From a virus: a DNA stretch of 23,717 bases. The notes under the pieces were generated by a model. The model saw nothing but the letters and a program-made list of their open reading frames with translations, was not told the origin of the DNA and made no database searches. Each line of letters opens with the position of its first letter. Position 1 is the stretch's first letter. The position numbers and the translations under genes are program-made. The stretch is from positions 1 to 23,717 of the IMG/VR virus record IMGVR_UViG_3300027901_000297; one strand, given 5' to 3'. This document shows positions 8,234-23,357 of the stretch, one piece after another.

Positions 8234-8577
8234 TATCCGCCCACCTCTTCCGAACAATAGAGTTCGAGCATTATATTTCTCTCATCTACATTTACCACAT
8301 TGTGAATCGTAAAGTAACGATCTCCATATTTTACTCTACAGTAACCTGGCGCTATTTCCGTACTTGCCGCAAGCGTGGCATAACGCATGCGTATTCTATG
8401 CGTAGCGCCTGCCTGTGTTTGTTGACTGGCAAAATAGAGGTTACCTCTCATGGGATATATTGCGCAATATGCTCCAATGTTACTAGACCATGAAACAGTT
8501 CTTTCCCCATATTGTGTGCTAACCGAAACAGTCTTTTTCTCAATGATGATTCTATGCCTTAACTCTCCACTACGCAT
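8233..8577 (-). CDS. Head closure / head-tail joining protein (Phage_H_T_join-like)
   Basis: This 114-residue protein opens with RSGELRHRIIIEKKTVSVSTQYG, the hallmark start of SPP1 gp16-like head-tail joining proteins. It continues with the expected compact beta barrel (WSSNIGAYCAIYPMRG, HRIRMRYATL, DRYFTIHNVVNVDERN). The family closes the portal/connector channel after packaging and gives the tail its docking surface. The ATG at 8577 has a GGAGA site and overlaps the end of an HNH endonuclease frame by 19 bases. It should directly follow the gp8-like connector, but here about 14.8 kb of unrelated genes separate the two. Confidence 0.87.
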   Translation of the reverse strand: MRSGELRHRIIIEKKTVSVSTQYGERTVSWSSNIGAYCAIYPMRGNLYFASQQTQAGATHRIRMRYATLAASTEIAPGYCRVKYGDRYFTIHNVVNVDERNIMLELYCSEEVGG

Positions 8578-8816
8578 AATTTTTTCTCCATAAATTCTTC
8601 AATTATCTTATTGCTTTTGGATACATTACAATGTAAGCAGGCTGGTGCGATATTCTCTATATAATCATTTCCACCCTTAGTTAATGGCACAATATGATCC
8701 CTTGTGATTGTCTTGCTATTCAACTTTTTTCCGCAATAAGCACACTTCCAGTCATGCTCTTTGCATAAAGAAATAAATTCATCTGCCGTATGTGAACCTT
8801 CTGCATTATGTTTCAT
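8559..8816 (-). CDS. HNH endonuclease domain (C-terminal half of a frameshifted HNH gene)
   Basis: This 85-residue frame holds a complete HNH nuclease domain: NAEGSHTADEF lead-in, C25-x2-C28, the RDHIVPL catalytic segment (D40-H41), GGNDYIENIAPAC, and C60-x2-C63-N64. HNH homing endonucleases of this type are phage-borne, nick or cut DNA, and spread their own gene. In full-length relatives the NAEGSHT segment is preceded by an RRA-type basic linker. The same linker is encoded here upstream of the ATG in this frame (VANRRAM), and it follows naturally from the end of the 8831-9457 frame if one A is added to an A run. So this is probably the displaced C-terminus of that gene rather than an independent gene. 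Confidence 0.8.
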   Translation of the reverse strand: MKHNAEGSHTADEFISLCKEHDWKCAYCGKKLNSKTITRDHIVPLTKGGNDYIENIAPACLHCNVSKSNKIIEEFMEKKLCVVES

Positions 8817-8830
8817 AGCACGCCTATTTG

Positions 8831-9457
8831 CTACTTTTGTTCGTACATATGTTCTCTATTTTTTTCTACCCACAATTTCCTTTGTCGTCTAATTTTATCT
8901 CTATTTGCCCTTTTGTATTGCTGATGTTTGTGTTTGTTCTTGTGATATTCCTTTCTCTTATATTCTAATACCTGTTCGGGGTGTTCATTTTGCCATTTAT
9001 GTGCTCTATCTAAACATATTTCCGGATTTCTATGATAATAATCTATAGCATATTTTCTGTGTCGTTCTGGTTCAGCCTCATATTTTGTTTTACGCCAATT
9101 CAAAAACCAATATCTGTTATCATCACGCCATTGCTTTTGATATTGTTTATGTTTCTCGCTATTTTTTTTATAATTATTTCGTCTTCGTTCGTTTATTTCG
9201 TCCTTGTGGGTTGCCCTATATTCTTTCGCTTTTATGTTTATTGCGTCTCTATTGTTTTCTCTCCATTTTCTAGCATTTGCTTTTACCTTATCTCTGTTAT
9301 TTTCTCTGTAATTTTTTGCCCATAATCTATGATATTCTTTGTTATGCTCTTTTCTACATGAATCACAAAATTTTTTAGTATGAAATGTTTTTAGTATTGG
9401 TTCCCCACACCTTTTGCAGGGTATCCAAATTGGTTTATTTAATATACCGCGTGGCAT
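8831..9457 (-). CDS. N-terminal half of frameshifted HNH endonuclease: zinc ribbon plus basic repeats
   Basis: This 208-residue, very Lys/Arg/Asn-rich protein begins with a zinc ribbon (C14-x2-C17, C31-x2-C34). It continues with a degenerate helical repeat built on NNRDK..A..R.WRENNR / KEYRATHKDEI, a common DNA-binding arm of phage HNH endonucleases. It ends NREHMYEQK and stops at 8831, 14 bases before the HNH half, in a different frame. Inserting one A in the A run at 8835-8838 fuses the two halves as MYEQK-VANRRAM-KHNAEGSHT, a typical HNH architecture. The gene is more AT-rich than its neighbours, as expected for a recently moved homing endonuclease. It starts as TAATG with the upstream gene. 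Confidence 0.7.
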   Translation of the reverse strand: MPRGILNKPIWIPCKRCGEPILKTFHTKKFCDSCRKEHNKEYHRLWAKNYRENNRDKVKANARKWRENNRDAINIKAKEYRATHKDEINERRRNNYKKNSEKHKQYQKQWRDDNRYWFLNWRKTKYEAEPERHRKYAIDYYHRNPEICLDRAHKWQNEHPEQVLEYKRKEYHKNKHKHQQYKRANRDKIRRQRKLWVEKNREHMYEQK

Positions 9458-11058
9458 TATTCCTTCACCTTAAACATGTCATAGCACGCCCGCAAGAACG
9501 GTTCCCTCTCGTTCATATAGTCGTCTATGTTTTTGTTGGTTTCCCACTCATGCTCCCGTAAGTGGTTGTTAAACACTTCACTCTTGTAATTATTCTCACC
9601 TGCCAAAACCCGCACCACCTCATCGGCGCTGCATTGCAATACATAATCGTATGCCCTTATGCCAGACAGGGCTTTCCTGTATGCTGATCTTACGTCTGTC
9701 ACGAGTTCATTTAACTCGTCGTAATTCGTGTATTCTATGAATTTCAGCTTACCAAATATCTTTGTTCTGGCCATGGGGGGCACGTTTATCCAGGGCACAT
9801 TTCGGCGTATCATGTCATACACGGGCCCGCTCGCATCCAGATATGAGTATGAAAAGTTGAGCATGAGGTAGAGGATATTGTCCTGTGCAAATAATTCCTC
9901 TATCTGGGCATTGTTCAGGGACCCCATGTAGTATTGCGGACACACGTTTTTCCATCCCACGTCCCCATAAACCTCTATTGTTCGGTCGGTGTTCAGGTTT
10001 TTTACTATTTCAAACTTGCACCATTGTGCCGCCATGAAAAAAAGATTGTGCAACAGACTAATCTTTGCCAGCCTATCATATTCTAATTCATCGGCATTTA
10101 GGAAAATGCGCCTCATGCTCATGTACCACGTGGTCAACTCCGTTAACGGGTTTGCCATGTATCTCATGATGGTTTCTATGGACCTAAGCATTGCCTGCAC
10201 GCCATCCCACCTACTATTTGATAGCACCACTACCTTGTAATCGTCTCGCAATTCCCGTTGGCGGGAAACACTACCGTAATCCTGCGGAATGGCTATATAA
10301 TGCATACCGTTGTTGTTATATCTTTCGTCCCAATCTTTAGTTAGAATGTGCAGATTAGACAAGTATGTTCGGCCCCGCCCCGTAAACATCCTGCGGGGAA
10401 ATCCCCATGGCTTCATGTCAGGTGGGTCGTTCTCCATAATGTAATAGTCAATCCCCATCCAATCGAACAACTGCAATATATGAACAGAGTAGTGATCCCA
10501 ATATTTTTCGAGAAAGTAATGGTTGACGGATGCCATCCGCCCTATCTTGTTTTCCTTTATAAACTCAATCAACTCATCTATTTCCATGGGGGGAGGAGAA
10601 TTAACCCACTTTCTCTTTTCACGGTCAAACCCAAGTTTAACATTTTTGCATATCGCATCAGGCAATGTTCGTTTTAAACGCTCAAACAGCGAACCGTACC
10701 GCATGTCTTCCTGCACATTCCAGTACAGCATGCGGTCCCAATCTTTTGCCACGCCCTTGAGGTTTTCATGCGTTTCTATCGCATCATTGGTGTTGTTAAT
10801 CAGTTTAAAAATGCGGTCAAATACCTTGTTGTGCTTTTCCAATAGTGGTTTTGGGATAATGGCATTTATCTGTTGTAATGGCATGGCATTAAACAAGTCA
10901 GATAGGTGATATAGTAACCATACCCCAAGGAAGTCTTTGCCCAACTTCCCGTTTCGTATGGTGATTTCCTTCCACTTTGGACCGTCACCAACGTTCCACT
11001 TTAGGCATATGGCACCATGATTTTCTGTTACCGCTATCTCTGCTTCTTTTCGTCCCAT
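9457..11058 (-). CDS. Glycosyltransferase-like protein (CgeB / GT-B type)
   Basis: This 533-residue protein has a C-terminal third that looks like the donor-binding half of CgeB-type GT-B glycosyltransferases. A strand gives IEVYGDVGWK (about residue 365), then PQYYMGSLNNAQIEELF, LMLNFSYSYLDASGPVYDMIRRNVPWI and a late TNYDELNELV helix. The middle part has a Rossmann-like strand (KVVVLSNSR) and a long helical insert. The N-terminal 200 residues are not recognised. The predicted role is transfer of a sugar to an unknown acceptor in the cytoplasm. It is the last metabolic gene of the cassette before the HNH insertion. The fold is inferred by pattern only, and the sugar donor cannot be told. It contains one of the TTCCCG-N4-CGGGAA palindromes (10252-10267). 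Confidence 0.6.
   Translation of the reverse strand: MGRKEAEIAVTENHGAICLKWNVGDGPKWKEITIRNGKLGKDFLGVWLLYHLSDLFNAMPLQQINAIIPKPLLEKHNKVFDRIFKLINNTNDAIETHENLKGVAKDWDRMLYWNVQEDMRYGSLFERLKRTLPDAICKNVKLGFDREKRKWVNSPPPMEIDELIEFIKENKIGRMASVNHYFLEKYWDHYSVHILQLFDWMGIDYYIMENDPPDMKPWGFPRRMFTGRGRTYLSNLHILTKDWDERYNNNGMHYIAIPQDYGSVSRQRELRDDYKVVVLSNSRWDGVQAMLRSIETIMRYMANPLTELTTWYMSMRRIFLNADELEYDRLAKISLLHNLFFMAAQWCKFEIVKNLNTDRTIEVYGDVGWKNVCPQYYMGSLNNAQIEELFAQDNILYLMLNFSYSYLDASGPVYDMIRRNVPWINVPPMARTKIFGKLKFIEYTNYDELNELVTDVRSAYRKALSGIRAYDYVLQCSADEVVRVLAGENNYKSEVFNNHLREHEWETNKNIDDYMNEREPFLRACYDMFKVKE
10252..10267. repeat. Palindromic repeat TTCCCG-TTGG-CGGGAA
   Basis: One of three perfect copies of TTCCCG-N4-CGGGAA, here inside the glycosyltransferase-like gene. 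Like the other two it is preceded by AA, giving AATTCCCG. Its spacer TTGG is the reverse complement of the copy at 16403. Confidence 0.6.
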
Positions 11059-11246
11059 TTCACCACCCTCACCTGATAGTAAACAGGGGGTTTCTTGTGT
11101 TTATAAAGGTTATTCAAGTTTAATGCCTTGTCACATTTTGTAACCCGCACCATGTGCGTGGACCCGTCTATTATATGAAATTGAGGTGACGGGGTGGTTC
11201 GCCTTTTGGTTTTTCCAGTTTCGCCTCGCCTCTTTTTAGTTTCCAT
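11034..11246 (-). CDS. Small basic hypothetical protein overlapping the radical SAM gene end
   Basis: A possible 70-residue basic protein (METKKRRGETGKTKRR at the start, then FHIIDGSTHMVRVTKCDKALN and a YYQVRVVKWDEKK end). It begins inside the last 76 bases of the radical SAM gene and overlaps the next gene by 25 bases. The part from FHIIDG onward looks protein-like and fills the otherwise unassigned 11059-11170 gap, which is the main reason to accept it. An AAGGTGA site lies 10 bases upstream of the ATG at 11246. A shorter start at 11153 is possible but lacks a good binding site. No family recognised. The Lys/Arg-rich N-terminus may simply mirror the overlapped frame. Confidence 0.4.
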   Translation of the reverse strand: METKKRRGETGKTKRRTTPSPQFHIIDGSTHMVRVTKCDKALNLNNLYKHKKPPVYYQVRVVKWDEKKQR

Positions 11247-12274
11247 AAGAACTCGTTCACCTTGTGTTGCAAGCATAATGACCCGCACATAGTCTTGGCA
11301 TTGAAACGCTCCGATGCTAATTCACCAATAACTTGCCAGTATCTTTTGCCTTGCCAAATTCGTTTGAAAGAATCATCGACGATACTACCAATGTGAAAGC
11401 GCGCATATCTTTCGCCAAAGAACATGCCACATGGAGCGACCAGACCGCTACCGCTAAATTGCATAATAAAAGGAGGACCATAACAACGATCATATTCCCT
11501 CTTTCCCTCGCTTAAAATTTTTGACCATTTCGCCTTGACAAGATAATCAGGAGTGCTTAACGCCTCCGCTTCCGTTAGGATTGGGATTAGCTTTGGGTAT
11601 TTATCGTACTCTACGCCTAAGTCTCCGTCTTCATTGTCACTGCAGTGCTTGAAGATAGTATAATCCACCCCCAACTGCTTGCCCAGTCTTGCCAACGGTA
11701 AAACCTGGTCGGCAAAACTCGGGAGCGTGACCATCTGCAACCCTATGGTACAGTCGCACCCCAACTCCTTCTTTACCTTCATACATTGCCTTATTGTTTC
11801 CACAACGCGGTCGAACGCCGTAATAGAGCATCCGTGAATTTCTGCGTACCTATTCGGCATCGCCGCAGATATGTTAAATCGGAGATAATCAAGAGCAGGA
11901 AGAATATCCCAAAGATGGTCCCTTTTAAGTAGGAATCCATTCGTGCCAAGAGCCATTGAAAGACCGTTCTGCTTGCCCCTGATAATCGCGTCATACAGGT
12001 GCGGATTACACGTGCTTTCTCCATCACTTACAAAGCTCACCCCTTTTACACCAATTTCGGCGGCATCATCTAAGAATCGAAATATTACATCTCGGGATAA
12101 ATTGATATTAGTATTGGTCTGCACTTGGCCATAGCAAAATACACACCGATAGCTACATTTGGTGCCCATGCTACAGTCAATGGTTATTGGTGCTATACGC
12201 TCCCCTGCGAGCCACGCCTCAACCCTATCCCTATGCCACTGTAACTTATGCCCATCTAAAACTAATTCGCCCAT
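11171..12274 (-). CDS. Radical SAM enzyme with SPASM-like C-terminus
   Basis: This 367-residue protein has the radical SAM cluster motif C40-x3-C44-x2-C47 (CSYRCVFC), which binds a [4Fe-4S] cluster and cleaves S-adenosylmethionine to start radical chemistry. The glycine-rich strand (SFVSDGESTCNP) and a TNGFLL turn follow. Late cysteines (CYGPPF, APCGMFF, MCGSLC) suggest a SPASM/twitch auxiliary cluster. The N-terminus (LQWHRDRVEAWLAGERIAPI) and the last residues (PPRHLNFI) match the radical SAM protein at 16888-17904 (LQFHPKRITKWLNGEPIGPI; PPKHVNFI), so both belong to one subfamily. The substrate is unknown; SPASM enzymes act on peptides or small molecules, and the neighbours here suggest a sugar or glycan. 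Three bases separate it from the preceding sulfotransferase-like gene. Confidence 0.88.
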   Translation of the reverse strand: MGELVLDGHKLQWHRDRVEAWLAGERIAPITIDCSMGTKCSYRCVFCYGQVQTNTNINLSRDVIFRFLDDAAEIGVKGVSFVSDGESTCNPHLYDAIIRGKQNGLSMALGTNGFLLKRDHLWDILPALDYLRFNISAAMPNRYAEIHGCSITAFDRVVETIRQCMKVKKELGCDCTIGLQMVTLPSFADQVLPLARLGKQLGVDYTIFKHCSDNEDGDLGVEYDKYPKLIPILTEAEALSTPDYLVKAKWSKILSEGKREYDRCYGPPFIMQFSGSGLVAPCGMFFGERYARFHIGSIVDDSFKRIWQGKRYWQVIGELASERFNAKTMCGSLCLQHKVNEFLWKLKRGEAKLEKPKGEPPRHLNFI

Positions 12275-12277
12275 CCT

Positions 12278-12901
12278 TTACTCTGGTAATTCCTTTCTAT
12301 ACCCAAAGTTATCAAAAATCTTTGCGTCCTTTTTTAATACCAGGTCAACCAATTCATCATCGTAATAATATGCCGTCTCTCTGTGGTCGGATGTATTCAT
12401 TACGCCCAAGTCACACAATTTTTGTTTCACCTCATATCCCATGTTCAGGATATCGGCAATCTGTTCCGTTAATCCATCCTCCATGCGGCATATTTTATCC
12501 AAGAGGCACGCTTGTGGCTTGTTCGGGTGAAACCATTGTATGATCATTCGTGCCGTCATGAATCCCACACTATCATCAAATAAATTTGTCTTCACGTAAG
12601 TCCCCAACTGTTTTTGTGTTGGCAATAACATGAATTCCTTGAATGACATGCCCTTTAAACTCATTGTTACAAGATTTGCCCACCAGCTCACGTACCAGTC
12701 AAAGGGGTTGCGCACAAAACCGAAACAGAATCTATTTGCTAAATCCACCCCAAAGAGTTCGTGTGCCTTATAAATTGGTGCATGTCGGTCATTGGTCATC
12801 ACAACAATGTCGTAACTGGCGTAACGATTAAAAAATTCCCGCAGCAGTGTGCCACCCGTTTTGGGAAAGTGCGAGTATACAAATGTGCGCCCTATTATCA
12901 T
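12278..12901 (-). CDS. Sulfotransferase-like P-loop protein (paralog family member 5)
   Basis: This 207-residue protein has the PAPS-binding 5' loop of sulfotransferases near its N-terminus (HFPKTGGT, residues 11-18) and the 3'-phosphate segment FGFVRNPFDWYVSWW (about 60-74). It closes with the family signature YYDDELVDLV and IFDNFGY. The known family reaction is transfer of a sulfo group from PAPS to a hydroxyl of a sugar, lipid, peptide or small molecule. At about 200 residues it is short but complete for the Sulfotransfer_2-like class. The start overlaps the methyltransferase stop as ATGA. Along with the members at 22716, 18963, 16172 and 15447 it forms a paralog set. The acceptor is unknown. 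Confidence 0.8.
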   Translation of the reverse strand: MIIGRTFVYSHFPKTGGTLLREFFNRYASYDIVVMTNDRHAPIYKAHELFGVDLANRFCFGFVRNPFDWYVSWWANLVTMSLKGMSFKEFMLLPTQKQLGTYVKTNLFDDSVGFMTARMIIQWFHPNKPQACLLDKICRMEDGLTEQIADILNMGYEVKQKLCDLGVMNTSDHRETAYYYDDELVDLVLKKDAKIFDNFGYRKELPE

Positions 12902-13737
12902 TCTTTATCCCTAGTCAGATACCAACATGCCCTTAAGGCCAACCTAGCCGAAAACCCTACCAATGGTATAAACGGTCGTTGTACTTTTTCTAATATGGGA
13001 ATTTTGGGATTCCACTTCCCCTTTATTCTTATTTCATCGGCATTGTCCCATTCTGTGGATTCAATCATTGTGTAATACCATAGAGGGTGAAGTGTCCAAC
13101 CAGAAAATATATTAATCATTGTATGAACCACATCTTCGTATGATGCCAAGTATACTGATTCATGCGATATGCTTTTTGATCTATGGTCTGGCCTGTCAGT
13201 TGCCACCCTATCTTTACGGTCACGATGAAATATTTCGCTCTCTATAATTATTGTTTTCACTGAATCGGAAATAAGTCTTACTATTTCAGTCCATGGGTTT
13301 GTCATATGGTAAATCAAACCGAGGCATGATATAACGTCATAGTTATTGTCTGGTGTAAAATTGCGTACATTGGTTGTATGCCACTTTATTCGGGTTGTAT
13401 CTATATTGGGGATTCGGTCTTTGATTTTATTCCATTGCTTCCTGAAATCCAGGCGTCCCTCAACTGCGGTGACATGTTCTGCCCCTGCCCGAATATATTC
13501 TATAGGGAAATGTCCTGCATTGGAGCCCAAGTCAAGTATGCTTTTGCCTTCAAATAGGTCTCTGCGACTATTGATCCACAATGTCAGGGGTCCCAAGCGC
13601 CCATTATAATCGCCACCCAATAAAGTGCCATCATCCAATATCTGATTAATAAGCGAACCATTAAGGCAGTTTATAACGCCTGAACGCTTATATATGCCAT
13701 CATCTCCTATTGGTAATCCCGTTCTATAAAAAGACAT
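12898..13737 (-). CDS. Class I SAM-dependent methyltransferase
   Basis: This 279-residue protein has the SAM-binding glycine loop ILDLGSNAGHFPI (residues 67-79). The acidic residue after the second strand follows (TAVEGRLDF), then a motif-IV-like DVISCLGLIYHMTNPW. The first 60 residues and a C-terminal segment rich in aromatics and basic residues probably bind the substrate. The layout resembles small-molecule or sugar methyltransferases, with some likeness to the CmoB/UbiG style, but I cannot name the acceptor. It begins immediately after the stop of the transketolase second subunit and overlaps the next gene by ATGA. This tight coupling argues that it acts on the same product as the transketolase or sulfotransferase. 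Confidence 0.85.
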   Translation of the reverse strand: MSFYRTGLPIGDDGIYKRSGVINCLNGSLINQILDDGTLLGGDYNGRLGPLTLWINSRRDLFEGKSILDLGSNAGHFPIEYIRAGAEHVTAVEGRLDFRKQWNKIKDRIPNIDTTRIKWHTTNVRNFTPDNNYDVISCLGLIYHMTNPWTEIVRLISDSVKTIIIESEIFHRDRKDRVATDRPDHRSKSISHESVYLASYEDVVHTMINIFSGWTLHPLWYYTMIESTEWDNADEIRIKGKWNPKIPILEKVQRPFIPLVGFSARLALRACWYLTRDKE

Positions 13738-14220
13738 TTACACCCTTATGTATGCTGGTTTCTTGCTTTTAATAAACTTATCAATCAAAATATCAAACCT
13801 ATCTGCATCGTAGTATGGGTCATAAACCTTCATACCTATCATATCTATGAGTTTTATGTCATCCTTGCCGCAACAATGGCAATCGCCAAGGAATCGAAAG
13901 TAATCATCACATCCGGTTGCAATGAATTTGACTGGCAATTCCTGTAGTACAACATCATTTCGTATCTGCTCAAGCGCTCTGTAAACGAGAAAGTTCACTA
14001 TGCTATAAACAACTGGTCGCATGCCTGCAAGCGCCATCCCTGCAGCTATCCCGACCATGCCCTGTTCGGCAACCCCGCAATTGGTTATCCGTTCTGGCAT
14101 TTCATCATGCATTTTATCAATGGCGCCAAAACCCATATCCCCCACAAGCAAATGATAACGCTCGTCTTTTCTGAAATAGGGGACTAACTGGTCTATTATG
14201 ATTTTGCGGTAGTTGCTCAT
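13738..14220 (-). CDS. Transketolase second subunit, pyrimidine-binding domain only
   Basis: This 160-residue protein corresponds to the Pyr domain of transketolase/DXS-type enzymes. The TPP-activating glutamate lies in CGVAEQGMVGIAAGMA (E52), followed by YRALEQIRNDV and a GMKVYDP strand. It ends with KKPAYIRV, which is where the Pyr domain of larger subunits ends, so the usual transketolase C-terminal domain (about 120 residues) is absent. The cofactor-near THH segment of classical transketolases appears as DCHCCGKDD (residues 113-121), giving an unusual Cys-His-Cys-Cys run. It follows the first subunit with no gap (TAA then ATG), so the two should form the active heterodimer. The predicted reaction is transfer of a two-carbon ketol unit or related carboligation, probably in unusual sugar synthesis. 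Confidence 0.87.
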   Translation of the reverse strand: MSNYRKIIIDQLVPYFRKDERYHLLVGDMGFGAIDKMHDEMPERITNCGVAEQGMVGIAAGMALAGMRPVVYSIVNFLVYRALEQIRNDVVLQELPVKFIATGCDDYFRFLGDCHCCGKDDIKLIDMIGMKVYDPYYDADRFDILIDKFIKSKKPAYIRV

Positions 14221-14967
14221 TTATAGGCGCAATTCATCCTGTGTTGGTAAACGATAATGAAACTTCGGTACATTCTCTGCCACTAACAGGCCATACCCCT
14301 TAATTGTTTCTGCCATAACGCAATGGGGGAACTTGTCACCCACATACATATTTAGCGTTTCAATTAATTCTGCCATATCATGTCCGTTACATATTATGGG
14401 CCACAACCCAAAACCGCTTAACCGCCTGCGTAGCGAATCATTAAACCTATCCATTACATTAATTCTGAAATCCATGGCCTGCAAGCGGTTATCGTCCACT
14501 ATTATTGCAAGGTTGTTTAATTCATGCTTGACGGCAAACTGAATGGCTTCCCAGTTGCTCCCTTCCTGCATTTCGCCGTCTCCTACAATACAAAAGACTC
14601 GACCCTCATGACCCAGTACCTTTTTTCCGAAGGCCGCGCCTACCGCTATCGGCAGTCCGTGTCCCAACGAACCGCACCCTGCGGTTATCCCATAATTCAA
14701 GTTGCGGGCGGAACAACCGGGAAGCTCAAAGTTTAACCATACCTCTCTCGGTATTTTGCCTAAGTCGGTAAGTATGGCATAAAGTCCATAACACCCATGT
14801 GCCTTGCTAAATATCAATTCATCATGGTCACCCATAACCTCGTAATACAGGGCAACCAATATATCCACACAGGACAGGGATGGCGCTATGTGCCCCTGCT
14901 TATTGCGCACAGCAACATCTATGACTTCACGCCTTATTTGGTCTGCTTTATTTTGATGGGGTTCCAA
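14221..14967 (-). CDS. Transketolase first subunit, TPP-binding domain
   Basis: This 248-residue protein carries the transketolase N-terminal signature QGHIAPSLSCVDILVALYYEV (H26 corresponds to the catalytic-site His). It also has SKAHGCYGLY, the GSLGHGLPIAVG loop, and the TPP/metal motif starting GDGEMQEG (129) and ending NN (151-152). Length matches split transketolase first subunits (about 250-280 residues). The likely start is the TTG at 14967, inside the end of a small Lys/Gly-rich gene and behind a GGCGGAGG sequence; no upstream ATG or GTG exists in the frame and the next ATG would delete the His motif. With the following gene it would use thiamine diphosphate to move two-carbon units between sugars. 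Such split pairs are common in polysaccharide gene clusters. Confidence 0.88.
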   Translation of the reverse strand: MEPHQNKADQIRREVIDVAVRNKQGHIAPSLSCVDILVALYYEVMGDHDELIFSKAHGCYGLYAILTDLGKIPREVWLNFELPGCSARNLNYGITAGCGSLGHGLPIAVGAAFGKKVLGHEGRVFCIVGDGEMQEGSNWEAIQFAVKHELNNLAIIVDDNRLQAMDFRINVMDRFNDSLRRRLSGFGLWPIICNGHDMAELIETLNMYVGDKFPHCVMAETIKGYGLLVAENVPKFHYRLPTQDELRL

Positions 14968-15113: not shown

Positions 15114-15434
15114 CTATCGTCTTAATCCTATACCTGCAGGAGCGCCAGGAACAGTTTTGTTGAAGTCGAAAGGGACGTTTACACTGTGCCCCCATATGTT
15201 TCTGGCATTTACCTCAATATGGTGATTGCCATTGGATATGCCTGCCAAGTCCATGAGAATAACAACTGTTTCACCGCCAACGTCCGTCTCTGCGTATGGC
15301 ACATAAGTTGGCGCTCCATCAAAAATGACTTCATATTCGTCAACGTCAGTTTGCGGGTCACACACGAGAAATGGGTTTGCCATTGCAAATGCTGGCAATA
15401 AAACAATGGCAACAATTAAAAATAATGTTTTCAT
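15114..15434 (-). CDS. Small secreted/periplasmic protein with signal peptide
   Basis: This 106-residue protein opens with a classical signal peptide: MKTL, a hydrophobic core (FLIVAIVLLPAFA) and a probable cleavage after AMA at residue 19-20. The mature part begins NPFLVCDP and has about 85 residues of beta-type sequence (YEVIFDG, ETVVILMDLAG, NHHIEVNARNIWG, VNVPFDFNK). An immunoglobulin or fibronectin-III-like domain is a reasonable guess from the strand pattern. With one Cys in the mature protein and no lipobox at the cleavage site, it is unlikely to be a lipoprotein. Its place between sulfotransferase and transketolase genes suggests a link with the envelope. Translation starts at an ATG behind a strong AAGGAG site. 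Function unknown. Confidence 0.75.
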   Translation of the reverse strand: MKTLFLIVAIVLLPAFAMANPFLVCDPQTDVDEYEVIFDGAPTYVPYAETDVGGETVVILMDLAGISNGNHHIEVNARNIWGHSVNVPFDFNKTVPGAPAGIGLRR

Positions 15435-15442: not shown

Positions 15443-15448
15443 CTCCTT
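15443..15448 (-). promoter_or_regulatory. Ribosome binding site of the secreted protein
   Basis: AAGGAG on the coding strand, eight bases before the ATG at 15434. It overlaps the TAA stop of the preceding sulfotransferase-like gene, so initiation here may be coupled to termination there. Confidence 0.65.
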
Positions 15449-16888: not shown

Positions 16889-17904
16889 TATATAAAATTT
16901 ACGTGCTTTGGCGGTTCCTCTTTCAGCGCCCATAAATAACGGTTGCAGGCATCCATCCTACACATCTTGCGACACTCTGTGCAATCAGGTGTGGGTTTGT
17001 TTATAGTCCACACCATATCGCTAAACGGTTGTTTCTTGATATTTCCATAGTAGAACGCCTTATTCCCCAGGTGAGCGCTACATGACCATAATCCGCCCCC
17101 ACTATCTAAGTATGCCCAGAAAGGTAGGGCATAGCATTTGTCATATGCACGCTCTGCATTGTCTGCCGTGTTTGTGCGGTATATTATGGGGAACCCATCA
17201 ATTTCGACCCTCTCTGTCCAAGAGGAATAATCTATGTCTCCATATGGGGCATCACTTGAGGGGTGCTGCGAGTACGGTTTTATTACCAGATAATCCATGC
17301 CAATGTTTTTTGCCATTTTAGCCAACTCAAACACTTCGTCCCTATTTTCGGGCAACCAAAGCATCTGAAAACCCAACACACACGGATATTGATTACGCTC
17401 CCTGATAGACGCCGCTCGTTCCATGTTTCTTAATGTCTGATAAAATTTGTTTTCCTTAACGCCGTGTAGTTTGGCATACGTGCCCGGAAATCCAGCATCC
17501 ACGCTCGTCTTTATCCAGTGGCAGTACGGGAGTATCTTTTCGGCAAGTTCCTGTTTTAGCAATCCGCCATTAGTGGTTATGGCCACATCTAAACCGCTTA
17601 ACACGGCAGTTCTCACTATTTCCGCAATATCCCCATGAAGCAACGGTTCCCCTTCTCCCGCAAACATAACGCTCTTGGTGCCTACCCCTGCCATCTCACC
17701 GAATGTGGCCTCAAGCAACCCAATATCTAGTTTGCGTCTCTTGTATCCCATAAAGTCAAGGGCACAAAAGACACATCGGTGTTGGCATGCCCCTATCGGG
17801 CTAATCTCCACATATATTGGCCCTATCGGTTCTCCGTTCAACCACTTGGTGATTCTTTTGGGGTGAAATTGTAATTTTTGGCTATCAATATAATATTTAT
17901 CCAT
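16888..17904 (-). CDS. Radical SAM/SPASM-like enzyme
   Basis: This 338-residue protein begins at the ATG at 17904 (a GTG two codons earlier is also possible), inside the last bases of the HNH gene. It has the radical SAM motif C40-x3-C44-x2-C47 (CQHRCVFC), a glycine-rich MFAGEGEPLLH strand and a TTNGGLL turn. The C-terminus has a set of cysteines (KCYALPF, WSCSAH, CTECRKMCRMDAC) typical of SPASM auxiliary Fe-S clusters. It ends PPKHVNFI. The same first-40-residue layout and the same tail occur in the radical SAM protein at 11171-12274. Such enzymes perform radical redox, epimerisation or bond-forming chemistry on peptides or small molecules. Substrate unknown. Its natural upstream neighbour may have been a sulfotransferase-like gene before the HNH gene arrived. 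Confidence 0.9.
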   Translation of the reverse strand: MDKYYIDSQKLQFHPKRITKWLNGEPIGPIYVEISPIGACQHRCVFCALDFMGYKRRKLDIGLLEATFGEMAGVGTKSVMFAGEGEPLLHGDIAEIVRTAVLSGLDVAITTNGGLLKQELAEKILPYCHWIKTSVDAGFPGTYAKLHGVKENKFYQTLRNMERAASIRERNQYPCVLGFQMLWLPENRDEVFELAKMAKNIGMDYLVIKPYSQHPSSDAPYGDIDYSSWTERVEIDGFPIIYRTNTADNAERAYDKCYALPFWAYLDSGGGLWSCSAHLGNKAFYYGNIKKQPFSDMVWTINKPTPDCTECRKMCRMDACNRYLWALKEEPPKHVNFI

Positions 17905-18889
17905 TGACACATCTCAAATCAAAACGTCTACAACCATATTGACTATGTATATATTCATGGCATGTGTTACATACTGTTATGCATATATCTATATCTACAG
18001 ATTCAATGGGGTTCTGTTTTATACCTTCTAGATGATGACAATGGAGGCTTTTATTGTCCCCGCATATTTGGCATTCCCAACCATCACGCTCAAATACCAT
18101 TTGGCGTAATTCGGGTTGCACTTCTCTTGCAGAATATTTTTCTCGTCCCCTGAGAAATTTTCGTTGATTAAAGGTGGGACATTCATTTTTGCATTCATCA
18201 GAGCAATATAATCGAGACTCTCCGTGATTTACTAAATGTGTTACTCGTATCCGGTTACGGACAGCGTTTTGAGTGGGGGTAAACCAGATGCCACAATAAG
18301 CGCATTTTACTTGTAAAATATTTGTTTCTGTAGGTTTCCTCCGAACGTCTTCCATAAATTTGATTTGTTTAGCATAAGTATCATATGCACATAATTGGCG
18401 TTTTTTTACACCCCCCTTCCAACTTGATGACTTTTCTTTTTTCCTTGAGTTTTTTTGGAACCAAAGCAACCAACAAGTCTTATTACAAAAGAAATGTTTA
18501 TTTCTTTTGAGAGCATAAGGGGTAACCATCTTAGGTTTTTTGCAGTTACTACATGCTACTTTGATTTTGGTAGATTTTCGTTGATAATTCCCCTTGCTTA
18601 ACCATGAACGAAAACATTTTTGGTCACAGAAAAAATGCTTATTACGTTTTGCACGAGAGGGGTGAACAAATTTTTTTGTACCACACTCGCCACATTGAAC
18701 TTCAATGCTACTAAATTGAGGGTTATTTGTTCCTCTGGTATTTTCTGATAACCATAATGCTTGGCACTTACTGTCGCAAAAATGTCTTTTAGACCTAACC
18801 GCACGAGCAAGTGTTAATCTTTTTGGTTTATTGCAGTATGCACACAAGACTTTGACTCTTTCTTTTCTTTCTTTTGTATGCTGTCTCAT
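17897..18889 (-). CDS. HNH homing endonuclease with four zinc-finger repeats
   Basis: This 330-residue basic protein contains four Cys4 repeats of the form CxxC-x18-29-CxxxC: C16/C19/C38/C42, C66/C69/C88/C92, C113/C116/C135/C139, and the looser C196/C199/C229/C233. The first three share RSKRHFC / RNKHFFC segments and probably read DNA. An HNH domain follows at about residues 262-316 (C273-x2-C276, LHCHH at 282-286, C307-x2-C310-H311, H315). This is the layout of phage HNH homing endonucleases. The gene is AT- and Lys-rich compared with its neighbours. It lies next to a sulfotransferase-like remnant and its 3' end overlaps the next gene's start, all signs of a mobile insertion into the cassette. 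Confidence 0.85.
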   Translation of the reverse strand: MRQHTKERKERVKVLCAYCNKPKRLTLARAVRSKRHFCDSKCQALWLSENTRGTNNPQFSSIEVQCGECGTKKFVHPSRAKRNKHFFCDQKCFRSWLSKGNYQRKSTKIKVACSNCKKPKMVTPYALKRNKHFFCNKTCWLLWFQKNSRKKEKSSSWKGGVKKRQLCAYDTYAKQIKFMEDVRRKPTETNILQVKCAYCGIWFTPTQNAVRNRIRVTHLVNHGESRLYCSDECKNECPTFNQRKFLRGREKYSAREVQPELRQMVFERDGWECQICGDNKSLHCHHLEGIKQNPIESVDIDICITVCNTCHEYIHSQYGCRRFDLRCVNG

Positions 18890-18892: not shown

Positions 18893-19015
18893 TTATAAAT
18901 ACCCAAATCGCTCCATAGCCAGTTTAAATTTTGATCGCTTTTTCCATGTATTATCATGGCCATTATATTGGTTGTATGTTAGTTGCGGGTCTAAATTCTG
19001 CCTCGATACCCTGCC
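18893..19015 (-). pseudogene. Possible sulfotransferase C-terminal remnant
   Basis: A 40-codon open frame without a start codon near its beginning overlaps the end of the sulfotransferase-like gene in another frame. It fills the 73-base gap before the HNH gene and ends in FKLAMERFGYL followed by TAA. That ending closely resembles the end of the sulfotransferase at 20820-21764 (FTATMENFGYL). The stretch HDNTWKKRSKFKLAMERFGYL is otherwise unexplained. It could be a fragment of a lost sulfotransferase gene cut by the HNH insertion, or the true C-terminus of the preceding gene after a frameshift. Confidence 0.45.
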
Positions 19016-19751
19016 TTAATTCTATTGGTTTTGCCTCTGGCGGTGTCCGTGGATAACCAAACCTGTCAAACAAGTATTGTTCCCTATGAAGAATTTCGCT
19101 TACTGCGCGCTCATCATAATAATCGCATATAGCCTTATTCGGGTCTTTCCTAACAGATGGCGTCAAGTTGTATGGTTCGGCCTTTCGTAAACCTGCCTCC
19201 TGTTCGGGGGATAGTTTGAAAATAAACTCATTGAATATGTCTACCACTTGTTCTACGAGTCCATCTTCCAATCTTATTATCTTATCGGCTAGATCACTAC
19301 CGTCATCATCGAGAAACATGAATTTAAACCACTTGGTCATCATACCATCCTTTATGTCTCCCTCGTTCCATACCCTCTGGTGGTGTGGCCAATTAATGGG
19401 TCTGCATTCATCCTGGTTTAATAGGTACTCACTAAATCCTACTGGCCTGTCTGTCACAGAACCGTCAAAACTAAATTGTGCTATAGACCACCATGACACC
19501 CACCAATCGAAAGGGTTTTTTATTATGCCCCAACGATAAGGTGGGTCTGTAATGCGGTAGGGGCGATTTGGACCGTTATATATCCAATCACCAAGCCATT
19601 TACGAATGAAGGTTCCGGCGCACTTGGGCATATGAATGAAACCAAAATCAGTATGCACGTAGGTGAATTTTCGATAGGAATACGTGTCGAACTTGTTCTT
19701 GCGCCTATTCATGTGCTGAATGTATTCCCAGGCTATTTGGCTTCTAATCAT
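18963..19751 (-). CDS. Sulfotransferase-like P-loop protein (paralog family member 2)
   Basis: This 262-residue protein starts at the ATG at 19751, overlapping the YkgJ-like stop as ATGA. Signatures: the P-loop HMPKCAGTFIRKWL (40-53), the 3'-phosphate segment WGIIKNPFDWWVSWW (about 74-88; the usual Arg is Lys), IIRLEDGLVEQVVDIFNE, YYDERAVSEIL, and LFDRFGYP near the end. After FGYP there is a 30-residue tail (PRTPPEAKPIELRQG and beyond) that its paralogs lack. In an overlapping frame another sulfotransferase-like ending is visible (18893-19015), so the C-terminus here may have been altered by a frameshift or rearrangement. Likely a PAPS-dependent sulfotransferase with unknown acceptor. Confidence 0.78.
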   Translation of the reverse strand: MIRSQIAWEYIQHMNRRKNKFDTYSYRKFTYVHTDFGFIHMPKCAGTFIRKWLGDWIYNGPNRPYRITDPPYRWGIIKNPFDWWVSWWSIAQFSFDGSVTDRPVGFSEYLLNQDECRPINWPHHQRVWNEGDIKDGMMTKWFKFMFLDDDGSDLADKIIRLEDGLVEQVVDIFNEFIFKLSPEQEAGLRKAEPYNLTPSVRKDPNKAICDYYDERAVSEILHREQYLFDRFGYPRTPPEAKPIELRQGIEAEFRPATNIQPI

Positions 19752-19978
19752 TTTGACTTACAACAAAAATCAACGCAAGCATCGGGGCGGTTCTCGTAAA
19801 TGCCACAAAGATTGTCCTCGGTTAAGTGTGGACAGTCTTTATCAAACACAAACATCATCTTCTTTACTGTATGCCCCGTGCGCACCGATAAAAATTTAGC
19901 CGCTTTTGGAGGAAGTGTAATTGAATACTTATTGCCTTTCCTGCAACACTTTCCGCATTTATCACAATCCTCTTTCAT
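19748..19978 (-). CDS. YkgJ-like CxxCxxCC metal/Fe-S-binding protein
   Basis: This 76-residue protein has the CxxCxxCC motif (C5, C8, C11, C12) plus CPHL (C49), a C-GIYENRP segment (C58) and a Cys-rich end (C68, C72, C73). This is the complete layout of the YkgJ / putative zinc- or iron-chelating family. I chose the ATG at 19978: it overlaps the radical SAM stop as ATGA and has a GAGGT site four bases upstream, while an earlier ATG at 20002 lies within that gene. The direct coupling to a radical SAM gene suggests a helper role, for example in cluster supply, electron transfer or metal handling. The biochemical function of the family is not established. Confidence 0.83.
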   Translation of the reverse strand: MKEDCDKCGKCCRKGNKYSITLPPKAAKFLSVRTGHTVKKMMFVFDKDCPHLTEDNLCGIYENRPDACVDFCCKSK

Positions 19979-20820
19979 GTTGACCTCAAGGTAATGGCAC
20001 ATGAGCCATACTCCTGAAATCTATTATTCTTGATTTTTACATCACACTCATTGCATGAGGGGGTTTGGCAATTTCTAAATTTGAACCCTATTTCAAGGTC
20101 TTCATCTAATATGTGTCCAATCGGGTTAATCCCCGCATACAAATCCCTGTGGCATCTATGTAAGTGCCCATCGGGTGCTATCAGTATTTCAGTATTCTTA
20201 CATTCCACATCTTTTACTTTTCCACGCATAACTCTTGGATACTTATATGTTCCGTATAGTTGTCCATGATACTCACCCAAAAACTGCTTGGTGCGAAAAT
20301 CAACTCCCGCAAGCAATGCAGTACGTTTCAATATCTCAATGCCAACATTAGGGTGATCCACAACAAACAACCCTATATCATATCCCGCTCCCTGTAATGC
20401 CAGTATGCGTCTCAACAATACATCATAGTCTGCCCATTCGGGATGATAGCTAACTCTAATAGATGCATAGGGGACGTTTCTCTGTAGTCGCCCTGGCAGT
20501 ATTCTTTTTATGAAATCATCCAAATCAAACGTAAGGTTGGTAAGAATATCTATGTAGAATTCCGGTCTCACACCTTCTATGATATCCAACCATCCCTTGT
20601 AAACGCTTGGTTCTCCACCCTGTAGCGTCAACGGCACCATAAGCGAGCGGGTAATGTTTAAGCGGTTCAATCCCTCCACCCATTGTTCTGGGGTTAATTC
20701 CCGTCGACGGGAAAGTTTTCCGTGCCTATTGATGCAGTAGATACACTTATAGTTACAGCGTAATGTTAGAAACACGCCCACATAAGTCAAATCGTTTGGC
20801 ACATCAATTTTTGGTAACAT
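19975..20820 (-). CDS. Radical SAM enzyme
   Basis: This 281-residue protein has the radical SAM motif C22-x3-C26-x2-C29 (CNYKCIYC) close to its N-terminus. It then has a glycine-rich LTLQGGEPSVYKG strand and an ILTNLTF turn. The C-terminal third has late cysteines (VECKNTE, LHRCHRD, RNCQTPSCNECD) consistent with an auxiliary Fe-S site. It is shorter than the other two radical SAM proteins and lacks their LQ-W/F-H start and HxNFI tail, so it belongs to a different branch. It overlaps both neighbours (TAATG upstream, ATGA downstream with the YkgJ-like gene). Substrate unknown; from context, modification of the same molecule that the sulfotransferases act on. It carries the perfect 16-base palindrome at 20698. 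Confidence 0.88.
   Translation of the reverse strand: MLPKIDVPNDLTYVGVFLTLRCNYKCIYCINRHGKLSRRRELTPEQWVEGLNRLNITRSLMVPLTLQGGEPSVYKGWLDIIEGVRPEFYIDILTNLTFDLDDFIKRILPGRLQRNVPYASIRVSYHPEWADYDVLLRRILALQGAGYDIGLFVVDHPNVGIEILKRTALLAGVDFRTKQFLGEYHGQLYGTYKYPRVMRGKVKDVECKNTEILIAPDGHLHRCHRDLYAGINPIGHILDEDLEIGFKFRNCQTPSCNECDVKIKNNRFQEYGSCAITLRST
19983..19987 (-). promoter_or_regulatory. Ribosome binding site deciding the YkgJ-like start
   Basis: GAGGT on the coding strand, four bases before the ATG at 19978. It supports that ATG over the in-frame ATG at 20002. Confidence 0.55.
20698..20713. repeat. Perfect 16-base palindrome TTCCCGTCGACGGGAA
   Basis: Third copy of TTCCCG-N4-CGGGAA and the only one whose spacer (TCGA) makes the whole 16 bases self-complementary. 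It lies inside the radical SAM gene and is preceded by AA, like the others. Confidence 0.65.
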
Positions 20821-21764
20821 TATAAGTATCCAAAGTTTTCCATTGTGGCAGTAAACCTATCGCGTTCTGGTTGTTCTATATCCTCAATCTTGATTGGTAC
20901 AACCCTCATTGAGTCTTCACATTCTCTTTTTACCCTGTCTTCCATCATCTCTGTCAGAGCAGTCGGTGAAACAAATGGATAATTAGATAGCATCATTCCA
21001 GCAATAATGCCTGGGTTCTCCACAATCATTTCATATTTGACATATTGGGCATCGCCCAGTGTATCCATTTGCGCTCTCCATATATGAGCACATCTCGTTA
21101 TATTATTCCACTCACCCCATAGCTCTCTAGCCTCTGAAGATACATACCACGGGCAATATGTTTCCGGTATAAACCAATTCAGTAAGGGAAGGGTTGGATG
21201 GGTAACGCCATCAGGTGTAGCAAATTTTAATTTTACATAATCTGCCACGACATCAAGACCGTTTCTAACCACGATCATGAATTTTACTTTCGGAAAAATC
21301 TTTCTTATCGTTGCCATGTGTGGAAATCCATCCACCAAATCGGAGATAAATAAGGGACGTTCCTCTATTATTCGAACAATGGCAGCACCATTGTCTGAGT
21401 TGTTTCCATGTCTCCTTTCAATCAATCGTTCTGCACATGTGGCCCATGCCCAATCTTTGTAAAGTAAATGGCGGGGATCATCGCACAAATATATCCCCCT
21501 AACCATTGGCACACAATGATCGTATAAAAGTGATAATCGGATAAGTGGGGATAATGTTTTAAGGGCATCGTTTGATGCGTGCGGGGGGATAAGTTTAAAC
21601 AAGGCTGGATGATTTAATCTATAAACATATTTCATGGTTGCAACTATCGCAGCAATCCAGGTCAGGCCAGTTCTTGCCACACCAGTTATCAGCAACATAT
21701 TGTCAAGCATGCTTCTTTCTAACGGTAGTTGCAAGGCAAGCCCCTTATGATTTTCTTCAATCAT
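20820..21764 (-). CDS. Sulfotransferase (distinct from the paralog set)
   Basis: This 314-residue protein has a sulfotransferase P-loop LLITGVARTGLTW (about 24-36) and a 3'-phosphate segment FMIVVRNGLDVVADY (162-176), with Arg167 in the usual position. It has a predicted PAPS-dependent fold of normal length. It ends in TATMENFGYL, the usual Sulfotransfer_1/3-type ending. It lacks the NPFDW and YYD signatures of the other five, so it probably acts on a different acceptor. The start is the ATG at 21764, with GAAAGGGG four bases upstream. A longer frame from a TTG at 21806 would overlap the GT9 gene and lacks support. It is joined to the next radical SAM gene by TAATG. Confidence 0.83.
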   Translation of the reverse strand: MIEENHKGLALQLPLERSMLDNMLLITGVARTGLTWIAAIVATMKYVYRLNHPALFKLIPPHASNDALKTLSPLIRLSLLYDHCVPMVRGIYLCDDPRHLLYKDWAWATCAERLIERRHGNNSDNGAAIVRIIEERPLFISDLVDGFPHMATIRKIFPKVKFMIVVRNGLDVVADYVKLKFATPDGVTHPTLPLLNWFIPETYCPWYVSSEARELWGEWNNITRCAHIWRAQMDTLGDAQYVKYEMIVENPGIIAGMMLSNYPFVSPTALTEMMEDRVKRECEDSMRVVPIKIEDIEQPERDRFTATMENFGYL

Positions 21765-21768
21765 GGTG

Positions 21769-21776
21769 CCCCTTTC
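21769..21776 (-). promoter_or_regulatory. Ribosome binding site deciding the sulfotransferase start
   Basis: GAAAGGGG on the coding strand, four bases before the ATG at 21764. It favours that codon over the TTG at 21806. Confidence 0.65.
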
Positions 21777-21795
21777 ATTTTCAAAATCGTGCTTA

Positions 21796-22728
21796 TCAGG
21801 CAACAAGCCTGCGCGTCTCCTCGTTGACGGTCTGCGCCGAAATAGCTTTCATGCAGGGTTCGGTGAACTGGCAGGTAGGTTTTAGACAGGGCATGTGCCC
21901 GCATATGTCGGGGGCAATTATCTTTTTGCCATTCTTGTATAGGTATACTTCGTGAGGAGATGTGGGGCCAAACAGCGCAACCGTCTTTTTCTGCATCGCG
22001 ATAGCCAAGTGCAACCCAAGGCTATCGTTCGTTATGATTGATTTGCAACTGTGAATCCAATCCATATAAGTTCTTAAATCATTCTCCCCCTCCTGCCATG
22101 ACACCTCCCTGATGTTTCCATCCAATAAACTGTATAATTCATTCCACCTCTCCGTGGGCCATGCCTTGTTTGGCCACTTTCTGCCCACGCGATGATTTAA
22201 TCCAACCTTAAATCTTACTTCGCTTTTTGGTTTATATCCGAGCACGTACGGCTCGCCATTCCATTTCCGATCTAGCATTTCAAACAGCACATCCTGCCAC
22301 GGGCGGGTGGCGTACCGTTTACGCTCATAGCTGCTATACGTCAAGAAAGCATTCACGCTATCCTTGTATGCCCTAGCAGTTCCAGTCTCAGGGTCAAACC
22401 TAAATCCGCATTTCTCCCATGCGTGAATCCTGTCCGCCAATGCGCACATCCCCGGTGTCTTTTCCAGATTTATCATAAGGTCATAGCGTTCGGACTCCAA
22501 CTGTAACAACGAATCCCAATGCCTGATAAGCACGCGGTCTATCATTGGGTTGTTTTCAATGAGCGGGTAGGCAGATTCCTCTACAAGCCATGTAATATTA
22601 TAATCCTTCAGGCAATGGAGTATTACCGTGGTGCGCAACACATCCCCAAGGCTGGGTGTTCGTCCTATCTCTGGATCCAGTGTTTCAGAATTGCCAAGTT
22701 TCAGGATAAGGGCCTTTAGCACCCCCAT
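21796..22728 (-). CDS. Glycosyltransferase family 9 (heptosyltransferase-like)
   Basis: This 310-residue protein has the family 9 layout: an opening strand (LKALILKLG), the TPSLGDVLRTTVIL loop-helix near residue 25, and a C-terminal donor-binding half. The latter holds KPKSEVRFKVGLNHRVGRKWPNKAWP, ITNDSLGLHLAIA, and VALFGPTSPHE (about 230-260). A Cys-rich tail (CGHMPC, CQFTEPC) is also common in this family. GT9 enzymes normally move ADP-heptose onto LPS core sugars, so the host surface or a similar glycan is a plausible acceptor. I used the ATG at 22728. A GTG two codons later has better spacing to GGAGG, and a TTG at 22737 is also possible. It overlaps the preceding sulfotransferase-like gene by 13 bases. 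Confidence 0.88.
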   Translation of the reverse strand: MGVLKALILKLGNSETLDPEIGRTPSLGDVLRTTVILHCLKDYNITWLVEESAYPLIENNPMIDRVLIRHWDSLLQLESERYDLMINLEKTPGMCALADRIHAWEKCGFRFDPETGTARAYKDSVNAFLTYSSYERKRYATRPWQDVLFEMLDRKWNGEPYVLGYKPKSEVRFKVGLNHRVGRKWPNKAWPTERWNELYSLLDGNIREVSWQEGENDLRTYMDWIHSCKSIITNDSLGLHLAIAMQKKTVALFGPTSPHEVYLYKNGKKIIAPDICGHMPCLKPTCQFTEPCMKAISAQTVNEETRRLVA

Positions 22729-23357
22729 TGCCTCCAAGAATCTTTTTCGTAACCGAAAGCGTTAAACATGGGTCTTTCTTTATAATACACTGCTTCTGCC
22801 AATTGTTCCGTGTAATGGGCATCCCTGACGGAGCTATTCTGTCTTTCTCCGTTGTAACTTTTGCCCGTTACACGTTTTAAAATATTGCCTATCCCGTCCT
22901 CAAACCTGTAAACGGTCACATCGGGCGGTTTAAGCGTTCCACCAAATTGTACCCACCAACGATAAAACATGAATCCCTCCTTGGCATTCTTTTGATGCCA
23001 TAAGGCGTATTTCATCTTTTCTCCTTGTTTCATGCGTAAGTGTACTTTTGGCGGGTCTAGTTGGTGCGGGAGTGCCTTTGCATAATCTTCAAAGGCCATT
23101 CTGTCACTATACATCCAACTCCAGTAGGACATGTTCCAATCGTATGGGTTCCTGACAACCGTCCACATGCCAGCATTCCATAAGTCCGATCTCTCAATGA
23201 ATAGCTGTTTGGCATGTCCGTATGCTGGATGCTGGTACTCATAAACGTCCCTGTATCCTTCTGCCCCTGGTGATTCATCCCCCATAAGGCAAAAGTCGGG
23301 TTGCCTTAGTTTCGCTTTTATGTATGTGCCACCCGTTCTTGGAAAATGGATAAACAT
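22716..23357 (-). CDS. Sulfotransferase-like P-loop protein (paralog family member 1)
   Basis: This 213-residue protein has the sulfotransferase 5' loop at its very N-terminus (IHFPRTGGTYIK, residues 3-14) and the 3'-phosphate segment TVVRNPYDWNMSYW (about 66-79). A VYRFEDGIGNILKRV helix follows, and it ends with PMFNAFGYEKD. It keeps the NP-aromatic-DW signature shared by the other four paralogs but lacks their YYD motif. This is the first gene of the inserted cassette: its ATG overlaps the TAA stop of the head-tail connector gene (TAATG), so it is translationally tied to a virion gene. Predicted PAPS-dependent sulfo transfer; acceptor unknown. Confidence 0.78.
   Translation of the reverse strand: MFIHFPRTGGTYIKAKLRQPDFCLMGDESPGAEGYRDVYEYQHPAYGHAKQLFIERSDLWNAGMWTVVRNPYDWNMSYWSWMYSDRMAFEDYAKALPHQLDPPKVHLRMKQGEKMKYALWHQKNAKEGFMFYRWWVQFGGTLKPPDVTVYRFEDGIGNILKRVTGKSYNGERQNSSVRDAHYTEQLAEAVYYKERPMFNAFGYEKDSWRQWGC

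Follow-up and report, generated by a model that had tools for sequence, protein, structure and literature searches.

What separates the head–tail connector gene from the head-closure gene of the phage recorded in IMG/VR as IMGVR_UViG_3300027901_000297, and what is it doing at that point of a neck module? We analysed this record over its full 23,717 bases (hereafter the window). Every gene called in it lies on the minus strand, to which all gene coordinates given below for the window refer, and the order in the direction of transcription is connector, 19 interval open reading frames (ORFs), head closure and tail genes. We confirmed that the interval is a real biosynthetic island that splits the neck module. 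Its core consists of a GT9 glycosyltransferase gene, the radical SAM genes rSAM_A and rSAM_B, two pieces of a split transketolase (TKn and TKc), the radical SAM gene rSAM_C and a gene for a conserved protein of 533 amino acids (aa; o533), and a second, divergent phage carries it at the same site with the gene order unchanged. We consider it probable that this is a resident island for glycan biosynthesis, sited where connector and head closure meet in a long-tailed phage lineage, and that it would alter the surface glycan of the host.

Both neck families of HK97-type siphophages are present in the window: PF05135 for the connector and PF05521 for head closure. The connector (23357..23716) matches phrog_442 (E = 2.7e-7) and has lost its N terminus at the contig end; the full-length protein of 200 aa on a second contig (G002, 3300028897_000717) matches PF05135 (1.5e-13) and the phrog_442/phrog_40 head–tail adaptors. 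A preliminary description of this DNA had called it gp8-like, which we correct to gp6/Ad1-like. The head-closure protein (Hc1, Phage_HCP; 8233..8577) matches PF05521 (5.1e-19) and phrog_25 Hc1. From the connector stop at 23357, where the expected TAATG is indeed found, to the head-closure start at 8577 there are 14,779 nucleotides (nt), beyond the ~1 kb taken as proximity. As comparison set we used 55 IMG/VR loci (L003–L057) with a relative of the head-closure protein; the gap ranged from −1 to 963 nt in the 49 with both genes (connector at E 1e-4), which bears out the earlier statement that the genes ending at 23357 and starting at 8577 are normally neighbours. The other six were not counted (L004, L018, L022 and L037 had no connector match, L057 no head-closure match and L056 neither), and at a looser limit L004 and L057 showed both genes, with gaps of −4 (a 4-nt overlap) and 898 nt. 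We opened the gaps of 12 relatives and found mostly one or two small ORFs inside. By eye, that of L006 holds a methyltransferase-looking gene and that of L039 a 184-aa ORF, so single extra genes enter this junction elsewhere too.

The same junction is opened in a divergent phage. Using a profile of the radical SAM family, we found 171 stretches in viral contigs and kept 80, of which 79 were other than G002 itself. One of these, L218, is part of contig G403 (IMGVR_UViG_3300027861_000044, 49,128 bases), whose record number denotes a metagenome other than that of G002 and its companion contig G001 (3300028897_000222). The gene-order comparison proposed in the preliminary description thus finds the core at the same neck site: G403 runs connector, GT9, a 2077-aa secreted-looking protein, rSAM_A, rSAM_B, TKn, TKc, small ORFs, rSAM_C, o533, head closure and tail genes, with 14,755 nt between connector and head closure. 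Proteins of the window and G403 are 28–61% identical overall, with 44.5% for the connector, 47.5% for GT9, 51% for rSAM_A, 45% for rSAM_B, 56% each for TKn and TKc, 61% for rSAM_C, 35% for o533 and 53% for the head-closure protein. The G403 block gave no blastp match at E 1e-4 to the sulfotransferases, methyltransferase or HNH proteins of the window phage, which are either later additions in that phage or losses in G403. The 2077-aa protein within the G403 cassette (33314-39547) has a beta-helix or pectate-lyase-type look, by eye only.

We then asked whether the arrangement could come from assembly. G001 matches window positions 2-11004 and spans the head-closure junction; G002 matches 10463-23717 and spans the connector junction. 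Outside 10465-10963 the window differs from them at three positions only, all within its first bases, and there is no mismatch around either junction. The preliminary description had named an assembly join at either junction as the finding that would count against it; we looked for one and saw none, G001, G002 and G403 being in agreement. That the window is a chimera of unrelated pieces is scarcely credible to us. It does change haplotype within o533, where G001 and G002 end, following G001 up to 10822 and G002 from 10905, and the linkage of the two halves in the population rests on the window contig and on a 542-nt overlap of G001 and G002 at 95.8%. Against this, each junction is internal to one of the two contigs, these are complementary halves of a phage, and G403 shows the whole arrangement on one contig. 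An assembly artefact was accordingly rejected, and the window is either a recombinant or a bridge across two haplotypes. Across 180 codons the o533 haplotypes show 19 synonymous differences and 4 non-synonymous ones, against an expectation of 20% synonymous for random single changes.

Family searches upheld the earlier view of the interval as non-structural and biosynthetic, returning sugar, radical SAM, sulfotransferase and HNH genes together with unknowns. Among the core genes, the heptosyltransferase-like GT9 (21796..22737) matches PF01075 (8.7e-16). The radical SAM proteins match PF04055: rSAM_A (19975..20820) at 4.3e-10, rSAM_B (16888..17910) at 1.4e-18 and rSAM_C (11171..12274) at 3.5e-14, the last also carrying a SPASM domain (PF13186, 1.7e-5). 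These proteins scored far under the cut-offs of the NCBIfam families listed. Their best-matching solved structures were the peptide enzyme SkfB, which ranked first, then DesII and BtrN, with BlsE lower; DesII and BlsE act on sugars. TKn (14221..14967; PF00456, 2.4e-14) is the N-terminal half of a split transketolase, with the split-chain transketolase 6yak as its best PDB match (2.5e-29), and TKc (13738..14220; PF02779, 1.3e-15) is a second piece with the pyrimidine-binding domain only. Judged by eye from the translations, what we take to be the sulfotransferase, radical SAM and thiamine diphosphate (TPP)-binding motifs appear intact.

The remaining core gene, o533 (9457..11058), has homologues in G403 and in L221, a contig of 9,324 bases with a third metagenome number. 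L221 carries TKn, TKc, a methyltransferase-like gene (below cut-off), rSAM_C and o533, after which the tail genes begin immediately with a gp10-like gene. A scan for further o533 relatives returned none, yet it also missed L218 and L221, which are known to hold them. A structural model of o533 built from three sequences reached a predicted local distance difference test score (pLDDT) of 62.7 and a predicted template-modelling score of 0.61, with residues 399-471 below 50, and a pLDDT of 35 without the relatives. The model aligned to BshA, GT4 and lipopolysaccharide (LPS) transferase entries over 250-269 residues (Z 5.7-6.4), unrelated entries reaching 7.2 over shorter stretches. Foldseek returned nothing for it from either PDB or BFVD at E 0.001. 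From this model, o533 is possibly a GT-B glycosyltransferase.

Around the core, the interval holds six sulfotransferase-like genes, a methyltransferase (12898..13737; PF13489, 1.2e-6), a small CxxCxxCC-domain protein (19748..20002; PF03692, 1.4e-10), HNH genes and, besides o533, one further unknown, a 106-aa protein (15114..15434) with a signal-peptide-like start by eye and no meaningful family match. Four of the six sulfotransferase-like genes match the phrog_3347 profile at E 1.9e-8 to 7.6e-5: ST_f (22716..23357, 1.9e-8; aligned in our alignment A1, with no match in the G403 block), ST_a (12278..12901, 1.8e-6), ST_b (15447..16229, 1.5e-5) and ST_c (16172..16933, 7.6e-5). The other two gave no match to it: the divergent ST_e (20820..21806) has no PHROG match and reaches PF13469 only below cut-off (6.1e-4), and ST_d (18963..19751), without a Pfam or PHROG match, is sulfotransferase-like by alignment only (A1, A3). 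One HNH homing-type endonuclease of 330 aa (17897..18889) matches phrog_1271 (1.4e-16). Next to head closure, an 85-aa HNH domain (8559..8816; PF14279, 2.8e-14) aligns to positions 171-232 of the 301 in phrog_2118, and a 208-aa ORF (o208; 8831..9457), lacking Pfam or PHROG matches, shares 24% identity across 197 aa with the first part of a G002 HNH protein. These are likely, from sequence comparison, the C- and N-terminal parts of one homing endonuclease in different frames. The 19-base overlap at 8559-8577 that had been described as a tight cassette junction does exist; since the HNH gene is apparently frame-split, the partner of the head-closure gene in this overlap is to be corrected to an endonuclease remnant. 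ORFs equal in length to the two halves occur in G001.

To place the core, we surveyed radical SAM loci in bacteria and other phages, counting as TPP enzyme a split transketolase, E1-type or acetolactate-synthase-type enzyme within the locus flanks. Bacterial genomes gave 290 stretches encoding radical SAM relatives, of which the best 80 were kept; these contained a TPP enzyme in 67, relatives of GmhA or HldE in 58, rSAM_B in 48 and rSAM_A in 6. All six core enzyme families occurred together in three (L166, L183 and L187). The window has the combination of rSAM_B, rSAM_C and TPP enzyme by which we define the bacterial radical SAM/split-transketolase cluster, and its core enzymes except o533 have homologues in bacterial clusters in which sugar-nucleotide genes are present as well. 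Of the 79 phage loci, 68 had a TPP enzyme, 60 heptose enzymes, 11 rSAM_B and 5 rSAM_A. After removal of near-copies (90% identity), TPP and heptose enzymes were found in 59 and 52 of 69 phage loci and in 59 and 51 of 72 bacterial loci. In control sets, TPP enzymes were absent from 57 phage sulfotransferase loci and from the 55 head-closure loci, and heptose enzymes occurred in 9 and 0 of these, respectively; the head-closure set consists of shorter loci, averaging 9.7 kb compared with 16.1 and 16.4 kb. Our markers identified a structural gene in 18 of the 79 phage loci and none in the other 61. The cassette stood before the terminase or portal in six of the 18, between portal and protease in four, after the capsid gene in three, in the neck in two and beside an opposite-strand portal in three. 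In L129, L223, L231 and L279, radical SAM/TPP sugar cassettes lie between the portal and prohead protease genes. On another large viral contig (L070, 6789-10140), two sulfotransferase relatives, a GT9 relative and a radical SAM relative stand side by side.

Under the explanation that we favour, the split TPP enzyme and the radical SAM enzymes would synthesise an unusual nucleotide sugar or modify one, perhaps a heptose with a precursor supplied by the host. GT9, and perhaps o533, would move this sugar onto an envelope polysaccharide. In the window phage the sulfotransferases would then sulfate the product, with the supply of 3'-phosphoadenosine-5'-phosphosulfate aided by an APS kinase encoded upstream on G002. 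The purpose, which we infer by analogy with phage precedents, would be superinfection exclusion: the surface of the infected cell would be so changed that neither rival phages nor the phage's own progeny could still bind the cell or its debris.

Several observations weigh against this explanation. We found no relative of GmhA or HldE in the window, in G403 or on G001 and G002; 22 of the 80 bacterial loci likewise have no heptose synthesis genes in their flanks. A sulfotransferase match was found in none of the 80 bacterial loci, so that sulfation does not belong to the bacterial clusters as they appear in this survey; the A3 profile (built without ST_e) matched none of eight whole bacterial genomes in a search that had no positive control. 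In L221 the island does not adjoin head closure, and no connector was found on this short contig. Four phage loci (L224, L225, L229 and L232) carry the radical SAM trio and TPP pair with no recognised structural gene. The neighbours in L224 are by Pfam ParB, PD-(D/E)XK, AAA and DNA polymerase/uracil-DNA glycosylase genes, those in L225 look similar by eye, and in L232 Pfam places an ERCC4 nuclease beside the set; late placement is therefore not intrinsic to the radical SAM/TPP set. Gene trees are also mixed. For rSAM_A, the window and G403 form a clade (support 100/99); for GT9, TKn, TKc and rSAM_C such a clade was neither shown nor rejected (approximately unbiased test P = 0.446, 0.136, 0.497 and 0.158), the nearest sequences are mostly bacterial, and TKn of the window groups with bacteria at 95/90. 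Repeated exchange with bacteria, or capture from them, is a possible reading of these trees. Because of the shared site, the shared order and o533, we consider one ancestral insertion with later exchange more probable than repeated capture.

The place of the island among virion genes invites a different explanation, in which its enzymes put sugar and sulfate onto capsid, neck or tail proteins during assembly. This would account for that place and for the partner o533, whose relatives, among the ORFs of the phage and bacterial loci searched, are found only in the neck- or tail-side cassettes of L218 (G403) and L221, and GT9 is close to the connector in both phages seen as far as that gene. We nevertheless think virion decoration rather unlikely, as the remaining core enzymes are homologous to bacterial clusters and other phages have the radical SAM/TPP set at a distance from recognised structural genes; the absence of GT9 from those loci says little, since flanks were limited to 10 kb, too short to reach even the GT9 of G403 from L218. 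Less likely again is a role in modifying phage DNA, or in producing a small metabolite within the infected cell, unconnected with surface glycans. A DNA methyltransferase gene (N6_N4_Mtase) elsewhere in the phage, on G002, would fit such a role, as would the low NCBIfam scores of the radical SAM proteins; the heptosyltransferase-like GT9 speaks against it, and so do the sugar-acting DesII and BlsE among the solved relatives of the radical SAM pair, even though SkfB ranks first.

The endonuclease genes raise the further question of whether the island is passive or selfish cargo, gathered at the junction by homing. Although one HNH gene lies within it (17897-18889) and the split one adjoins head closure, we regard this as very improbable: the core stands at the same site in G403, where blastp detected no counterpart of the HNH proteins from the window, G001 or G002 (G403 was not searched by family), gene order is kept at 35–61% protein identity, and the o533 haplotype differences are mainly synonymous. 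An origin through homing endonucleases was disfavoured on the same blastp result. Returning to a resident island that remodels the host surface, a broader version of it appears to us doubtful, and we offer it tentatively: phages and many bacterial phyla may share an unrecognised sugar pathway, formed by the radical SAM trio and a split transketolase-type enzyme, which this lineage has fixed in its neck module with a glycosyltransferase of its own (o533, known so far from phages only), tying glycan remodelling to virion assembly.

Sugar islands beside neck genes have been described before. According to PMC7029224, pelagimyophages (SAR11 myophages) have an island that lies between VrlC and the neck gene gp14 and contains LPS genes as well as radical SAM cassettes. 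This host recognition cluster (HRC) and its cyanomyophage counterpart resemble the island of the window in being large, variable, part of the structural region and next to a neck gene (there gp14), and in their content of radical SAM cassettes, LPS-sugar genes and glycosyltransferases. HRC phages are T4-like and carry tail-fibre genes in the island, whereas the window has an HK97-type head module (Phage_HCP, Phage_connect_1), a core order conserved in both phages seen whole and no tail-fibre gene recognised in the cassette; its structural genes place it outside the T4-like HRC definition, VrlC and gp14 not having been searched for as such. The island studied here belongs to another type of phage, and its core is conserved. 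The bacterial clusters L183, L187 and L166 hold the same six enzyme families close together, along with glycosyltransferase-looking genes (by eye). Unlike the phage, the 80 bacterial loci have no o533 or sulfotransferase match, and 58 of them have the heptose-synthesis relatives not found in the phage. The epaA–epaB genes of an Acinetobacter baumannii prophage are similar in that a phage carries enzymes which change a sugar on the surface of its host (PMC12053666); they differ in being two genes that convert one capsule sugar, and the excerpt of that paper names neither radical SAM proteins nor a split transketolase.

Among 50,697 annotated phage records, we found no megablast match to the window and no match to o533, ST_f or rSAM_A, and rSAM_C had weak matches (24–29%) in five records. 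Word-combination searches of the open-licence literature listed no paper on this island among titles and abstract starts, and no assigned function for the radical SAM trio with a split transketolase. The architecture is a recurring one and not a lone odd contig: a sugar pathway of many genes recurs at one point of the virion gene block in two divergent phages, and probably in a third, and related cassettes of radical SAM and TPP-enzyme genes occur in dozens of environmental phage contigs (68 of the 79 loci kept, from 171 stretches). The gene set is shared with bacteria and small enough for expression and assay, making the sugar produced and the closing of the surface to competitors directly testable.

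Late co-expression of the cassette with the virion genes, as the preliminary description proposed, is plausible and only partly supported; our analysis of it covered strand, spacing and consensus scans. Genes in the window overlap or are closely spaced save for gaps of 146, 112 and 73 nt. On both strands of 4000-23717, promoter-like sites numbered 34 against 48.8 expected and terminator-like sites 20 against 17.1. The claim that the cassette has no internal promoter or terminator is thus consistent with a lack of site enrichment in the window, which is weak evidence of absence, and does not extend to the G403 block, which has a predicted terminator. The strongest terminator-like site on the coding strand of the window lies outside the cassette (7241-7210, minus strand; a 14-pair hairpin and T run), just upstream of a 275-aa ORF. 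G403 has two 13-pair terminator-like sites on its coding strand, one between rSAM_C and o533 (L218 11146-11179) and one within the tail genes (15320-15350). The rSAM_C–o533 gaps of 112 nt in the window and 114 nt in G403 are unalike by eye beyond the coding ends. Rfam gave no RNA match at gathering score. That placement among late genes is unusual for metabolic cargo was overstated, given the pelagimyophage island described in PMC7029224.

Beyond the island, the 3' side of head closure encodes an HK97-gp10-like protein (weak, E 0.045), tail completion and the 275-aa ORF (6364-7191), labelled major tail protein without a family match, followed by a tail-tube-like protein (E 6.7e-4, below cut-off), a chaperone-like ORF (weak, E 0.061), the tape measure (E 4.2e-7, below cut-off) and distal tail genes. 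The composition of the cassette in oligonucleotides is close to that of other parts of the phage (r 0.85-0.92), with a maximum of 0.66 against 129 other loci. As to the host, relatives of the major capsid protein at E 1e-10 were found in 4 of 198 genomes from the phylum of L130 and 3 of 198 from that of L200 (best identity 39%), and the nearest bacterial cassette genes come from assemblies titled Nitrospirae, Thermodesulfovibrio, Geobacter, Deltaproteobacteria and Planctomycetota, none nearer in composition than r 0.66.

Upstream on G002 are the major capsid protein, protease and portal genes, then a second sugar block between portal and terminase (L066–L067, about 34.6-52.6 kb), such that two sugar blocks appear to lie within the morphogenesis genes of this phage. 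The second block contains APS kinase, sulfotransferase and nonulosonic-acid-type genes, the latter including NeuB, NeuC, LegC/PseC-type, PseB-type and NeuD-type genes, a cytidylyltransferase and an N-acetyl-sugar amidotransferase. Among the NCBIfam families shown for ten of its genes, NeuC alone passes its cut-off (320.9 versus 235.9 bits). The portal gene beside it (L066:11093-14455) encodes 1120 aa, including an intein with a LAGLIDADG domain.

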